Source: Variovorax sp. WS11
GTDB taxonomy: Bacteria > Pseudomonadota > Gammaproteobacteria > Burkholderiales > Burkholderiaceae_C
Length of the DNA stretch: 64,000 bases
Assembly (NCBI RefSeq): GCF_010499245.1
Contig: NZ_JAAGOW010000001.1
Location: 3,534,001-3,598,000, forward strand
Reading direction: 5' to 3'
Shown here: positions 5,332 through 9,122 of the stretch, one piece after another
Position numbering within the stretch: position 1 is the first letter of the stretch
Layout: every line of letters begins with the position of its first letter
Made by a program: the position numbers and the translations under genes
Notes under the pieces: model-generated
What the model saw: the letters and a program-made list of their open reading frames with translations, nothing else
Database searches by the model: none
Told to the model about the DNA's origin: nothing

Positions 5332-6279
5332 ATGGACTTGCAATCCCTCACCCTGTTGGTCGAGATCCTCGATGCCGGCAACCTGAGCGAGGCCGCGCGC
5401 CGGCTCAAGATGAGCCGCGCCAACGTGAGCTACCACCTCAACCAGCTCGAGCGCTCGGTCGGCGCCCAGCTGGTGCGCCGCACAACGCGCCGCGCCGAGG
5501 CCACCGAGATCGGGCAGCGGCTCTACCAGCATGGCCTTGCCATCCAGAACGAGCTGCAGGCCGCGCGCGAGTCGGCCACGGCGCTGGGCGAGGGGCTGGT
5601 GGGCCGGGTGCGGCTCAGCGTGCCCAGCGGCTACGGGCAATTGGTGATGTCGGACTGGCTGATCGACTTCAAGCGCCTCTACCCCGGCATCGTGCTCGAC
5701 GTGCTGTTCGAGAACCGCATCGAGGACCTGCTGCGCGACGAGGTCGACATCGCCATCCGCGTGATCCCCGAGCCGCCGCAGAACCTGGTGGCCCGCGCGC
5801 TGGGGCCGGTGCGCTACGTGGCCTGCGCCTCGCGCGCCTACGCGCAGGAGCACGGGCTGCCCACGCAGCTCGATCAGCTCAGCGGTGCGCCGGTGGTCAC
5901 CGCCGCGGTGATCGGCAAGCAGCTGCGCATCTCGGCCTACCAGGGCGAGGAGCGGCGCGAGGTGGTGCTGGAGCCCACGCTGATCTCCGAGAACTTCCTG
6001 TTCCTGCGCCAGGCCGTCCTGGCCGGCCTGGGCATCGGGCTGGTGCCCGACTACGTGGTGCAGGAGGATGTGCGCCGCGGCGAGGTGCTGACCACGCTGG
6101 ACGACTGGCGCCTGAGCATCTTCGGCACGCAGATGTTCATGCTCTACATGCCCAACCGGCAGCACACGCGGGCGACCCGGACCTTCATCGAGTTCATCCT
6201 GGAGCGGGCGCGGGCGGGTTCGACGGGCGGACCCGGTGCGGTGCAAACACCTGCGGCAGCCCGGTCTCTGCCGAGTTAG
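5332..6279 (+). CDS. LysR-family transcriptional regulator of the beta-oxidation operon
   Basis: 315-residue LysR regulator. The N-terminal winged HTH (about residues 1-60, with LSEAARRLKMSRANVSYHLNQ as recognition region) is followed by a LysR substrate domain (about 90-290). It is transcribed divergently from the fatty-acid operon and its start lies 30 bases downstream of a perfect palindrome. Such arrangements usually mean it controls the neighbouring operon in response to a pathway intermediate. The effector cannot be read from sequence; an acyl-CoA or dicarboxylate is a guess. Confidence 0.9.
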   Translation: MDLQSLTLLVEILDAGNLSEAARRLKMSRANVSYHLNQLERSVGAQLVRRTTRRAEATEIGQRLYQHGLAIQNELQAARESATALGEGLVGRVRLSVPSGYGQLVMSDWLIDFKRLYPGIVLDVLFENRIEDLLRDEVDIAIRVIPEPPQNLVARALGPVRYVACASRAYAQEHGLPTQLDQLSGAPVVTAAVIGKQLRISAYQGEERREVVLEPTLISENFLFLRQAVLAGLGIGLVPDYVVQEDVRRGEVLTTLDDWRLSIFGTQMFMLYMPNRQHTRATRTFIEFILERARAGSTGGPGAVQTPAAARSLPS

Positions 6280-6311
6280 CGCGGAATTGAGGCCTTGCTG
6301 GCGTCTTTTGA

Positions 6312-6346
6312 CTAACTTTTCCGTATTTCAAGTACGCGAAAGTTAG
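6312..6346. repeat. 35-bp imperfect palindrome, upstream copy (putative hipA operator 1)
   Basis: Left arm CTAACTTTTCCGTA (6312-6325) and right arm TACGCGAAAGTTAG (6333-6346) pair at 12 of 14 positions around a 7-base spacer. A second copy with the same arms and spacer is centred 62 bp downstream, immediately before the hipA-like start. The local AT-richness contrasts with the flanking genes. Confidence 0.7.
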
Positions 6347-6373
6347 AAAATTTGCATATCCCAGCCTGAAATG

Positions 6374-6408
6374 CCAACTTTCCCGTATCTGAAACACGGA
6401 AAAGTTAG
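6374..6408. repeat. 35-bp imperfect palindrome, downstream copy (putative hipA operator 2)
   Basis: Left arm CCAACTTTCCCGTA (6374-6387) and right arm CACGGAAAAGTTAG (6395-6408) pair at 11 of 14 positions around a 7-base spacer. It ends two bases before the GTG start at 6411 and overlaps the only candidate ribosome site (GGAAAAG). A bound repressor here would block transcription and possibly translation. It shares its consensus with the copy at 6312-6346. Confidence 0.7.
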
Positions 6409-6410
6409 AC

Positions 6411-8303
6411 GTGCCCCTCCACCTCGTCGGCGAGACCATCGACAAGACGCGCAGCCACTACCAGGCCGAGACGGGCAAGCTCGTCCAGCTCATGCGAGGC
6501 ATCTATGCCGACGCGGGCGACGACGTCGATCAAACCGTCCTCGCGCACGCCGTGCGTATCGCGCGCTACCTGTACCCGAAGGCCTATTTGTCCGGCGCGA
6601 GCGCCATCCTGCTCGGCCCCACCCGCGACGGCCGCCTCTACCTGTCCGGCCAGCGGGTTCAGCGCACCCGCATCCGCGCCCTGGAAATCATCCAGAACAA
6701 GGCGCCGGCGAACCCTTCGGTCGCTAGCGCCTCGATCGCCGACAGTCTCGGCGAGTTCAGCGTTCAAGTCTCTGCCGTGCGGCAGCGCTTCCTCGAGGCT
6801 TTCCGTCGGCGCAGCGAGCACGCGATGTCCATCGACGCGGCCATGCGCGAGGCGCTTTCGGCGCGGCTCATCGAGGAGTACGGCGATGCCAAGGGGGCCA
6901 GCGACGCCGTCTGGGCGCTTGCGCGCGAGAACGAGTGGTATCGCGAAGCCGAGGCGGCACAGAAGTTCCTGTTGCGTCGCCCCACGGCCGTGGCCGTCCG
7001 GAACGAGGCTGCCTTCGATCTTCTCGTGGCCTGGCACGGACTGCCCATCGGCACGCTCGCGCACGATGGTTTCGAATGGCGCTGGTCGGCGACCCAGGAG
7101 GGCGCGCGGCTGCCGCCCGTCGTGCGGCAAACCGTGCCGGGAAAACTGCCGCCCTTCATCGTCTCCCTGCTGCCCGAGGGCTGGCTCGAGTCGGTTCTGA
7201 AGGGCCGCCGCGACGAACGCGCCCTGCTGCGTTCAGGCAAGCGCTACATGTCGAACATCACCGTCGCCGCGACGGTGGACGAGTTGTCGACCTTGCCCGC
7301 GGACATCCTGACCCACAAGCTCGCTGCCTTCACCCGCGACGGGCTCTTCACGGGCGCCTACGCCGGTCCCGGCAGGAGCGCCGTCGAGCGGGACTTCGAG
7401 CACCGGCTGGCCGCGCTCTTCGCGAACGCCGAGACGCCGCGCCTCTCCGGCGTGCAGATCAAGGCCCCCATGCATCTGGACGCGGACGGAAAGCTGGTGC
7501 CCAGCGTGACGCTGCCCTTCACGCACATCCTCAAGCCCGCGGGAAAGGGCGCCTTCGAAGCATTGCCGCTCATCGAGTGGATCGGCCTGGCGCTCGCGCG
7601 CGCCTGCGGGCTTCCCGCACCGGAGACCGCGCTGGTTCGCATGCCGGACGGCATGTCTGCGGCCCTCCTCGTCGAGCGCTTCGACATCCGCGACCAGCCG
7701 GGCGATACGCGTTGGCTGGCCATGGAGGACATGTGCTCGGTGCTGGATCTCGAGCCCGAGGCAAAGTACACCGGGATCCTCGAACGCGTCGCACGGGCCG
7801 TTCGCGTCTTGTCCACGGCCCCCGAGGAAGACCTGCTGCTGCTGCTTCGCCGCGTCCTGTTCGCCTGGCTCATCGGCGACGGCGACATGCACCTGAAGAA
7901 CCTGGCGCTTCTCAAGAGCGCACGCGGCGGCGAGACGGCGTTCAGCGCAGTTCGCCTCGCGCCCGTCTACGACGCGCTGACCACGCGTGCCTTTCCCGGT
8001 CTGGAGCATGACCGCATGGCGCTGAAGCTCAACGGCAAGGACGAGCGGCTGCGGCGAGCGGACTTCGTGGCACTCGGCAGCATCGCAGGGCTGCGGGCAA
8101 CGGATGCGCAGACCGCCATCGACGATGTGCTGCAGCGTCTGCGGCAGGGACTCGACGCGCTGAGCATTCCGCCGGCCCTCGCGCTGAAGGGCCGATGCGC
8201 AGGCCATCGTCGCGAGGACGCTGGATCTCTGCCGGGGGCGCGTTGCGGCCTTCGAGTAGTCTTGCGCAACTTCAAGAAAATCAGCGGCATCCTCAAGACC
8301 TGA
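6411..8303 (+). CDS. HipA-family kinase with N-terminal AbiEi-like antitoxin/DNA-binding domain
   Basis: 630-residue open frame. Residues 1-185 resemble the AbiEi antitoxin fold: LMRGIYADAG followed by a helical stretch and KAYLSGASAILL. From about 200 a full HipA serine/threonine kinase follows: N-terminal subdomain to LLPEGW (254-258), glycine loop LSGVQIK (345-351), THILKP (371-376), VERFD (422-426), catalytic DGDMHLKN with Asp492 and Asn497, and metal-binding YD at 520-521. No hipB lies next to it. The GTG start follows GGAAAAG, and an in-frame stop at 6390 excludes an earlier start. The last 35 residues look frameshifted: removing one G near 8190 gives a HipA-like tail ending at a TAG at 8257-8259. 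HipA kinases typically phosphorylate aminoacyl-tRNA synthetases; this target is not shown here. Confidence 0.8.
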   Translation: MPLHLVGETIDKTRSHYQAETGKLVQLMRGIYADAGDDVDQTVLAHAVRIARYLYPKAYLSGASAILLGPTRDGRLYLSGQRVQRTRIRALEIIQNKAPANPSVASASIADSLGEFSVQVSAVRQRFLEAFRRRSEHAMSIDAAMREALSARLIEEYGDAKGASDAVWALARENEWYREAEAAQKFLLRRPTAVAVRNEAAFDLLVAWHGLPIGTLAHDGFEWRWSATQEGARLPPVVRQTVPGKLPPFIVSLLPEGWLESVLKGRRDERALLRSGKRYMSNITVAATVDELSTLPADILTHKLAAFTRDGLFTGAYAGPGRSAVERDFEHRLAALFANAETPRLSGVQIKAPMHLDADGKLVPSVTLPFTHILKPAGKGAFEALPLIEWIGLALARACGLPAPETALVRMPDGMSAALLVERFDIRDQPGDTRWLAMEDMCSVLDLEPEAKYTGILERVARAVRVLSTAPEEDLLLLLRRVLFAWLIGDGDMHLKNLALLKSARGGETAFSAVRLAPVYDALTTRAFPGLEHDRMALKLNGKDERLRRADFVALGSIAGLRATDAQTAIDDVLQRLRQGLDALSIPPALALKGRCAGHRREDAGSLPGARCGLRVVLRNFKKISGILKT

Positions 8304-8321
8304 CACCTACCGGACCTGCCC

Positions 8322-9056
8322 ATGCCCATAGACCCAGCCATCGTCAAAGCCTTCACGCCCACGGGCGTCCTGCGCGCATCCATCAATCTCGGCAATCCCA
8401 TCCTGGCGAAGCGGAGTGCCGGAACCGGCGAGCCCGAGGGGGTGTCGATCGACCTGGCGCGCGCCTTCGCCGCGCAGCTGGGCGTTCCGCTCGAACTGGT
8501 GGTGTTCGACACCGCCGGGAAGTCCGTCGAGGCCGTGACCGCCGAGCAGGCCGACATCGGCTTCTTTGCCGTGGACCCGCTGCGCGGACAGGGCATCCGC
8601 TTCACGGCACCTTATGTGCTGATCGAGGGTGCCTACCTCGTCAGGGAAGGCTCGCCGATCGCCTCGAACGACGAGGTCGACCGGGCCGGCGTGCGCGTCA
8701 TGGTCGGGAAGGGCAGTGCCTACGACCTGTACCTCACGCGCGAGTTGAAGGCGGCCGGCATCGAACGCGCGCCGACCTCGCCCGCCGTTGTCGACAGTTT
8801 TCTCTCCGAAAACGCCGACGTCGCTGCCGGCGTGAAGCAGCAGCTCGAATCCGATGCGGCGCGCCTGGGCGGGCTGCGCCTGCTGCCCGGCCGCTTCATG
8901 GAGATCCGGCAGGCGATGGGGGTGCCGATCAGCCGAGGAGAGCCGGCCGCAGCTGCCCTGTCGGCCTTCGTCGAGTCCATGAAGTCCAGCGGCTTCGTGA
9001 GTGCCGCGTTGCAGCGCCACGGGATCAAGGGCGCGATCGTCGCGCTGGCGGCCTAG
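8322..9056 (+). CDS. solute-binding protein family 3 domain protein without signal peptide
   Basis: 244 residues forming a type-3 amino-acid-binding fold. It opens with the domain itself (FTPTGVLRASINLGNP near residues 10-25), continues with GVSIDLARAFAAQLGV and the hinge segment IGFFAVDPLRGQGIRFTAPYV, and ends at the second lobe. No hydrophobic leader or lipobox precedes the domain, so the product is predicted to be cytoplasmic. There is no permease or ATPase partner nearby, so it is unlikely to be a normal ABC receptor; ligand sensing or an enzyme-like role is possible. The ATG at 8322 follows the hipA-like frame by 18 bases. Confidence 0.75.
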   Translation: MPIDPAIVKAFTPTGVLRASINLGNPILAKRSAGTGEPEGVSIDLARAFAAQLGVPLELVVFDTAGKSVEAVTAEQADIGFFAVDPLRGQGIRFTAPYVLIEGAYLVREGSPIASNDEVDRAGVRVMVGKGSAYDLYLTRELKAAGIERAPTSPAVVDSFLSENADVAAGVKQQLESDAARLGGLRLLPGRFMEIRQAMGVPISRGEPAAAALSAFVESMKSSGFVSAALQRHGIKGAIVALAA

Positions 9057-9122
9057 GGTTCGGCCGGGCGTACCCACGCAGGCGCACGGCATGTCCTGGC
9101 CACGCCCCGCCCGGCCTGCCTC

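Follow-up and report, generated by a model that had tools for sequence, protein, structure and literature searches.

HipA kinases cause growth arrest and antibiotic tolerance. In hipBA, HipB sequesters HipA on DNA (passages of PMC10627512). AbiEi and Rv2827c autorepress by binding inverted repeats at their own promoters, as stated in passages of PMC7319586 and PMC3985639. For HipH, a one-gene member of the Hip tree, an N-terminal putative DNA-binding domain was proposed to act as an antitoxin in cis, and the control of the one-gene members HipH and HipL was left open in the cited sections of the classifying paper (PMC8262856). Here we describe a gene in a stretch of 64,000 nucleotides from Variovorax sp. 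WS11 (contig NZ_JAAGOW010000001.1, positions 3,534,001 to 3,598,000; hereafter the window), in which a HipA kinase is joined to a domain with the predicted fold of an antitoxin from an unrelated system (type IV) and in which a presumed operator is a conserved landmark.

At the sequence level we find the fusion itself, a kinase with intact motifs, two operators that are conserved and a phased -35 box, and no conserved partner among the genes scanned. We consider it quite likely that the product is a single-gene, self-repressing HipA-family Ser/Thr kinase, the AbiEi-like domain of which is predicted to bind both operators. Probably one gene fulfils a task for which separate toxin and antitoxin genes are the rule.

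The fusion protein

The open reading frame (ORF) extends from 6411 to 8303 on the forward strand, starts with GTG and translates into 630 amino acids. An AbiEi-like domain of about 190 residues and a complete HipA kinase are contained in this single ORF, as in a family of proteins of about 612 residues. We read 87 loci (numbered with L), i.e. the best 80 from a scan of genome contigs, one of two viral contigs, five plasmid loci and the window. The scan, with peptide patterns from helix 12-20 and the wing of the N-terminal domain, detected 105 relatives of this domain, and we retained the 80 best. Domain and kinase were joined in one ORF in 80 of the 87 loci, and 78 of these ORFs encoded 610-615 residues; among the intact fusions the window (630 residues) and L044 (632 residues) were atypical in length. 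Many loci were close kin, such that 73 intact fusions reduced to 45 at 88% identity. The features of the protein are as follows.

6411 to 6980, forward strand: AbiEi-like N-terminal domain, residues 1-190 (AlphaFold2 pLDDT 93.9; AbiEi 6y8q, E 4.2e-6, Z 11.4)
7008 to 7430, forward strand: predicted HipA N-subdomain-1 (HipS-like), residues ~200-340, boundaries approximate (model superposition; low pLDDT here; weak Couple_hipA matches below the cut-off)
7434 to 7469, forward strand: Gly-rich loop TPRLSGVQIKAP, residues 342-353 (invariant residues in 45 sequences; HipT register by eye from the alignment)
7443 to 8147, forward strand: HipA kinase core (HipA_C), residues 345-579 (Pfam E 7.9e-41; HipA Z 24.4 over 323 residues)
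7884 to 7901, forward strand: catalytic motif DMHLKN, residues 492-497 (invariant in 45 sequences)
7968 to 7973, forward strand: Mg-binding motif YD, residues 520-521 (invariant in 45 sequences)
8194 to 8259, forward strand: C-terminal tail and stop of the family type, readable only in another frame than the ORF (translation compared with family C-termini)

Pfam HipA_C matched residues 345-579 with an E-value of 7.9e-41, and K375, D492, H494, K496, N497, Y520 and D521 were invariant in an alignment of 45 sequences. The protein has the hallmarks of a HipA-family kinase, namely HipA_C with a Gly-rich loop, an ATP-binding Lys, DxHxKN and YD. An earlier interpretation of the locus from its letters and translations (the sequence-only reading) had claimed complete HipA kinase motifs, which is borne out by the HipA_C match and the invariant motif residues. 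The best sequence relatives of solved structure were HipT kinases (E 1.7e-18), followed by E. coli HipA (E 1.3e-8). A full-length AlphaFold2 model built from 45 sequences had a predicted local distance difference test score (pLDDT) of 76.7, with lower values between residues 200 and 350. Residues 200-591 of the model superposed on residues 2-415 of E. coli HipA with a Z of 24.4 over 323 residues. Judged by this model the kinase part looks like a full HipA including N-subdomain-1, unlike HipT. In the Gly-rich loop one Ser (346) is located at the second phosphorylation site of HipT and an invariant Arg344 at the first, with the register set by eye; therefore the control by autophosphorylation may differ from that of HipT. 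By analogy the active kinase would slow growth as HipA and HipH do.

These data bear on the possibility that the protein is an ordinary member of the HipH/YjjJ family, i.e. a one-gene HipA kinase with an N-terminal helix-turn-helix (HTH). It shares with HipH, as described in passages of PMC8262856, the single gene, the lack of a partner and the N-terminal putative DNA-binding domain, and YjjJ was its sole NCBIfam match (E 1.4e-6, kinase residues 384-524). Yet the score for the YjjJ equivalog (NF007297) was 27.4 bits with a cut-off of 401, and an AbiEi fold of ~190 residues plus N-subdomain-1 is predicted here, whereas HipH has ~100 amino acids with an HTH in place of N-subdomain-1. That the two N-termini lack sequence similarity proves little because the same comparison missed a genuine AbiEi. 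In a tree of the kinase parts 19 fusions formed one clade (support 97/98) apart from 20 HipA-type rows. HipH branched outside the family clade, though on a very long and unsure branch, and the divergent Thalassospira and Shewanella fusions joined the family clade (96/92), both with long branches. The tree was calculated without HipT, and support for a clade of its HipA rows was lacking (50/0). Long branches were flagged for HipH, Thalassospira and Shewanella. The NF007297 score, the tree and the superposition on HipA including N-subdomain-1 do not support membership in HipH/YjjJ, which we regard as highly improbable.

The sequence-only reading had recognized an AbiEi-like domain by an RGIY and a YLSGASA pattern. 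Both were located, at residues 29-32 and 59-65, respectively, and they are largely conserved. The PADLOC AbiEi profile matched marginally within residues 10-66 (E 0.017-0.018), and Pfam AbiEi did not match the protein of the window. For an AlphaFold2 model of the domain with a pLDDT of 93.9, S. agalactiae AbiEi was the best match in the Protein Data Bank (Foldseek E 4.2e-6). Two Foldseek matches were below an E-value of 0.001 and both were AbiEi chains (4.2e-6 and 3.8e-4), with the next match at 0.53; template-modelling (TM) scores were 0.48-0.52. VIA-align to AbiEi 6y8q gave a Z of 11.4 and a root-mean-square deviation (rmsd) of 5.4 Å with 167 aligned residues from model residues 1-188, and Rv2827c (1zel) was aligned with a Z of 7.3. 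With no other fold below the threshold the assignment of the N-terminus to AbiEi held.

The AbiEi relationship thus appears marginal by sequence and clear by predicted fold. It rests on the fold search and weak profile matches because profile comparisons with single sequences gave no significant probability: hhalign with the Fic fusion of L033 (see below) and with HipH yielded 4.2% and 1.7%. The family alignment used for these comparisons contained few effective sequences (Neff 1.8). The structure prediction of residues 1-190 returned the C-terminal fold of AbiEi, as the sequence-only reading had anticipated, but not a full winged HTH. The DNA-reading part of the model consists of strand 3-6, helix 12-20 and strands 24-28 and 31-34, i.e. 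one recognition-type helix (12-20) and a wing (24-34) after the first strand. The complete three-helix winged HTH of the published AbiEi description is absent from the model.

At the C-terminus the residues of the window after ~591 (about 40 codons, window 8183-8303) do not follow the reading frame of the family. From 8194 another frame encodes a family-like tail, DAQAIVARTLDLCRGRVAAFE, with a stop at 8257-8259, as judged by comparison of the translation with family C-termini. The off-frame tail of the window may be a mutation or a sequencing error. Hence the ORF from 6411 to 8303 is present as initially described, and its family-like end lies at 8259 instead of 8303. L044 has a likewise atypical tail.

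Two operators and a putative promoter

Upstream of the gene the following elements were assigned.

6312 to 6346, no strand: operator 1, ~35-bp imperfect palindrome CTAACTTTTCCGTATTTCAAGTACGCGAAAGTTAG (14 of 17 symmetric positions complementary; family-wide, upstream of the putative -35 box)
6352 to 6357, forward strand: putative -35 box TTGCAT, 22 nt before operator 2 (phased TTG across loci; presumed promoter)
6374 to 6408, no strand: operator 2, ~35-bp imperfect palindrome CCAACTTTCCCGTATCTGAAACACGGAAAAGTTAG (13 of 17 symmetric positions complementary)
6375 to 6380, forward strand: candidate -10 box CAACTT, weak match, in the left arm of operator 2 (spacing from the putative -35 box)

The palindromes fill an AT-rich stretch before the gene with a G+C content of 39.6%, compared to 68.5% in the gene. 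Both operators were found before 78 of 81 family genes, and each scored above all 1620 mononucleotide-shuffled upstream regions. The exceptions were L045 and L071 with one site each and L058 with masked bases. In 72 of the 81 loci the operators were spaced by 62-65 bp, or nearly six turns of the double helix. The gap between operator 2 and the start codon was 1-6 nt in 80 of the 81. In a set of 50 representative loci both operators were present in 48, with a spacing of 62-65 bp in 45. The operator matrix was built from the same sites; a held-out check was carried out with three fusion genes that had not been used for it. The two sites scored 38.9 and 37.4 bits in L032, 17.7 and 9.6 bits in L150 and 36.9 and 16.1 bits in L151, and the best shuffle reached 0.7. 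Symmetric positions of the two operators were complementary in 75.4% and 77.9% of cells, i.e. with z-values of 5.3 and 6.3 above column shuffles.

In 33 of 48 loci a TTG was located at exactly -22 relative to operator 2, and 42 of 48 had one between -26 and -19, compared to 14.5% of shuffled spacers. TTGACA was the commonest -35 hexamer (9 of 42). Given a TTG at this position and the usual spacer the -10 box would therefore lie inside the left arm of operator 2. The arrangement suggests a sigma-70-like promoter that is flanked by two operators and, as with AbiEi, inverted repeats that overlap the gene's own promoter. We also considered the palindromes as mRNA hairpins or terminators. This was rejected because operator 1 is located upstream of the putative promoter and has a sequence in common with operator 2.

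In the own genome of 8.49 Mb the operator pattern matched only these two places when up to 3 mismatches were allowed (control 0). The double operator is an observation beyond the sequence-only reading, which had omitted the upstream operators, the carriers of the strongest evidence, from its span but had named 6312-6408 as DNA to test. Its proposal that the fusion carries its own repressor in cis gains support from the conserved double operator before the gene and from the lack of a third site in the own genome.

Scanning of 919,554 bases of loci gave 172 sites above 10 bits. Of these, 166 were no more than 140 nt upstream of a fusion gene or a truncated copy. The remaining six comprise the pair of the window, included a second time as L031, the pair of L032, a site before a remnant (L116) and an unexplained one in L023. 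The site before the L116 remnant is weak (10.6 bits). The one in L023 (122-156; NZ_CP121654.1, about 233.6 kb) scores 47 bits and is intergenic on a Rhizobium plasmid, between a hypothetical gene and a SIR2-family gene.

The strong L023 operator, 3.8 kb from the fusion gene, fits an explanation in which the protein chiefly controls the transcription of other genes, with the kinase as sensor or output and autorepression as a side effect. On the other hand, no third site exists in the genome of the window up to 3 mismatches, and of the 172 sites in the scanned loci all but L023:122 belong to a fusion gene, a truncated copy or a remnant. We judge a main role in the regulation of other genes to be very unlikely.

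Proposed autorepression and competing explanations

hipB was absent among the annotated neighbours of the five plasmid loci, for which the gene tables are incomplete. Clustering of 340 same-strand ORFs within 800 bp in 49 loci yielded no cluster in more than 4 loci, which corresponds to the one-gene operon of HipH/YjjJ. A Pfam scan of the 143 same-strand ORFs of 55-250 amino acids within 350 bp in 48 loci hit HTH_3, HTH_31, HTH_37 and MarR_2 once each. E. coli HipB as a tblastn query, an insensitive test, had no match in the 87 loci (L021-L025, L035-L116). An adjacent HTH antitoxin gene of the hipB type, as in hipBA, was not detected among the same-strand neighbours scanned. A separate HipB or any other conserved same-strand partner was rejected, as none was found by clustering, Pfam scan and tblastn. 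The statement of the sequence-only reading that the gene has no HipB partner agrees with homologues unpaired with HipB in plasmid gene tables, same-strand ORF scans and HipB tblastn.

AbiEi and AbiEii queries taken from L023 matched only L023 among the 87 loci, as a separate pair, with the reservation that a distant AbiEii could escape; a paired AbiEii nucleotidyltransferase gene for the fusion was not seen in the 87 loci. The L023 pair is a complete AbiEi/AbiEii type IV system that adjoins the fusion gene on the Rhizobium plasmid (L023:926-3125, reverse strand). The upstream neighbour in the window (5332-6279, same strand) is a LysR-type regulator, and 48 of 61 genomes in the genus have it. 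We do not regard it as a partner because it is widespread in the genus, where none of 36 other searched genomes contains the fusion.

Because an AbiEi fold is fused to the kinase, inverted repeats cover the presumed promoter and no other candidate regulator was found, autorepression is the simplest interpretation. The AbiEi-like domain would bind each ~35-bp palindrome as a symmetric dimer. Operator 2 would cover the -10 box and the start site, and operator 1 would be located just upstream of the -35 box. Bound protein would keep RNA polymerase off the promoter and thereby the kinase level low. On DNA the kinase may be held inactive in analogy to the sequestration of HipA by HipB, and release from DNA or autophosphorylation would switch the kinase. 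It is plausible that the N-terminal domain also inhibits the kinase, i.e. that it serves as a cis antitoxin. We infer that the AbiEi-like domain is the binder of the operators and that binding represses. Since the presumed operator is conserved beside the gene, autoregulation is directly testable with one protein and 100 bp of DNA.

Several findings weigh against this interpretation. The TM score to AbiEi in Foldseek was only 0.48 with an rmsd of 6.4 Å, and hhalign of the domain profile with the one genuine AbiEi (L023) found nothing (probability 0.6%). The second subdomain fits nucleotidyltransferases of the MenT1 type nearly as well as AbiEi (Z 10.2 vs 11.4); alone it also matched the ANT(2'') nucleotidyltransferase with a Z of 8.0, and AbiEi itself is reported to be similar to nucleotidyltransferase enzymes (passages of PMC7319586). 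The DNA-reading part of the model comprises helix and wing without the first helices of the AbiEi winged HTH, and the conservation of helix 12-20 and wing is partly built in because the scan relied on peptide patterns from this part and, out of 105 relatives, retained the best 80. Phasing of the operators to the same face of DNA is not universal because the sites of L150 and L151, which are partly weaker, are 55 bp apart and not 62-65. The column shuffles used for half-site symmetry leave relatedness in, one operator in L023 is not at the gene, and the divergent Thalassospira and Shewanella fusions have no operator of the family type upstream.

The reduced DNA-reading part lends some substance to another explanation, in which the operators belong to a different, trans-acting regulator of the host and the AbiEi-like domain no longer binds DNA and is solely a cis inhibitor or a target-binding arm; operator binding by the domain is a prediction. 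This is opposed by the lack of a third operator in the own genome, by sites that travel with the gene across classes and plasmids without a conserved same-strand neighbour and, as a suggestive point only, by operator letters that vary together with residues of the domain. We consider a trans-acting regulator improbable.

The covariation was seen when every variable residue of the 591-residue alignment (45 sequences) was scanned against the operator positions. The top-ranking pairs linked position 15 to residues 97 and 83 and position 2 to residue 13; a link between kinase residue 230 and position 10 ranked equally high. Residues 9-23 contributed 4 of the top 25 pairs (0.9 expected). K83 was accompanied by C15 in 7 of 7 rows (C15 also in 3 of 72 others) and E97 by C15 in 7 of 9 rows; D or N at 13 was accompanied by C2 in 6 of 6 rows (C2 also in 4 of 73 others) and R17 by G1 in 12 of 12 rows (G1 also in 1 of 67 others). 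In independent pairs the operator changed in the same way or stayed, and never changed in the opposite way. Other trait codings agreed, with three discordant rows for residue 17. Two further results weaken this evidence: residues 1-193 as a whole hold 11 of the top 25 pairs with 8.1 expected, and the associations of residues 83, 97, 13 and 17 are based on 3-4, 5, 4 and 1 independent pairs, respectively, such that no sign test reaches 0.05. The variation of residues 83, 97, 13 and 17 with operator positions 15, 2 and 1 is suggestive only because the associations were chosen after looking.

A more far-reaching version is tentative, and we would rather doubt it as a whole. Here the entire toxin-antitoxin system would reside in one polypeptide, with the AbiEi-derived domain as both autorepressor and cis antitoxin, and four kinases would be inactive and sequestered on DNA at the two operators. 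The half-sites would be read in two parts, the outer CTAAC by helix 12-20 and the inner CGTAT by a basic strand ridge (82-97). The related module fused to Fic would then make it a general cis regulator of protein-modifying toxins.

Distribution and comparison with known systems

The named hosts of the family are mostly alphaproteobacteria (Rhizobium, Mesorhizobium, Rhodobacterales) and betaproteobacteria, and some metagenome-assembled genomes are filed as gammaproteobacteria. Among 72,556 plasmid records, 81 contained at least 80% of the protein, and many of these 81 were Pseudosulfitobacter plasmids. The distribution is patchy. A search for relatives in 61 genomes gave one full-length match, to the genome of the window itself, and the others matched kinase parts. 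At an E-value of 1e-4 per genome the N-terminal profile matched 4 of 274 genomes of the class, namely the own genome, one with the fusion L032 and two with Fic fusions. In the phylum it matched 4 of 398 genomes, i.e. the own genome, those with the fusions L150 and L151 and one with a fragment. In 50,697 phage records there was no full-length relative and one partial kinase match (33%). On the other viral contig (L116:1772-2350) the domain is reduced to a remnant, in which its first ~40 residues run into unrelated sequence.

Truncated family members were L055 and six closely related Mesorhizobium loci (L101, L102, L104, L105, L106 and L109). The truncated Mesorhizobium fusions retain a strong operator (50.3 bits) near the broken start; five are without the second site and L109 has both. 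In the relative G013 (L147) window positions 6215-9108, i.e. 2.9 kb with the fusion gene and a solute-binding-protein gene, are replaced by ~1 kb, which by eye resembles an alpha/beta-hydrolase gene. The flanks are 89-90% identical, therefore the locus is a variable site.

Two genes combine an AbiEi-like N-terminus with a Fic domain and no kinase (L033:568-2034 and L034:367-1875, both reverse strand). They matched the N-terminal profile with E-values of 7.4e-6 and 9.3e-5 per genome (274 genomes) and Pfam Fic with 2.9e-11 and 2.6e-12; with a tighter alignment hhalign gave only 4% for L033. Stand-alone distant relatives of the domain with ~24% identity (L026:3977-4630, L028:3977-4630 and L027:3977-4597) are located on plasmids of Xanthomonas, Stenotrophomonas and E. 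coli (IncU/IncX3) and are annotated as hypothetical. L026 and L027 had no Pfam match, and none of the three has an annotated kinase or nucleotidyltransferase neighbour. A palindrome of the family type was not found upstream of the Fic fusions and the stand-alone relatives. Repeats of other sequence were a 17/20 repeat in Shewanella, which resembles an upstream terminator, a 14/18 repeat in L034, which is above all its shuffles, and one upstream repeat each in L026 and L028 above the 95% shuffle level. The two probable Fic fusions hint at an AbiEi module that can be transferred from one toxin type to another.

How does the fusion compare with described systems? AbiEi of S. agalactiae and Rv2827c of M. 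tuberculosis have the fold that is predicted for its N-terminus, and Rv2827c has two sets of repeats like the two operators here (passages of PMC7319586). AbiEi is a separate antitoxin gene paired with a nucleotidyltransferase toxin and has a three-helix winged HTH and 23-bp repeats in the description cited in part. In contrast, the domain of the fusion is attached to a kinase, is predicted to have helix and wing only and faces palindromes of ~35 bp. With HipA of hipBA the fusion shares the kinase motifs and a common architecture of N-subdomain-1 and kinase core (Z 24.4). Yet HipA depends on a separate protein, HipB, for its regulation and its tethering to DNA (passages of PMC10627512), and no HipB was found beside the fusion. 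HipT of hipBST is the best sequence match among solved structures (E 1.7e-18). It lacks N-subdomain-1, which is the separate protein HipS (sections of PMC8262856), whereas the model of the fusion has it. The S-x-S loop of HipT, for which the phosphorylation sites were taken from passages of PMC10627512, reads R-x-S in the fusion family.

A description of a HipA-AbiEi fusion was not found in the open-licence literature, covered largely as titles and first parts of abstracts, nor in passages of TASmania and Makarova 2009, and a term search of PMC8262856 (Gerdes 2021) gave no mention of AbiEi. HipH (YjjJ) of E. coli K-12, clade X of the Hip tree, is likewise a HipA-homologous kinase in a one-gene operon. 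Its extension of ~100 amino acids with an HTH has no sequence similarity to the domain studied here, in a weak test and as far as the source passages go, and the fusion family differs by the ~190-residue AbiEi fold predicted for it, HipA N-subdomain-1 and the conserved double operator. EzeT, a single-chain zeta-type toxin, also unites an antitoxin domain and a toxin kinase in one chain; its kinase and antitoxin families are different, and the passages of PMC4826407 mention no operator for it. With HipH as the nearest concept, EzeT as a precedent and no described HipA-AbiEi fusion we therefore count the fusion as a variant on a known theme.

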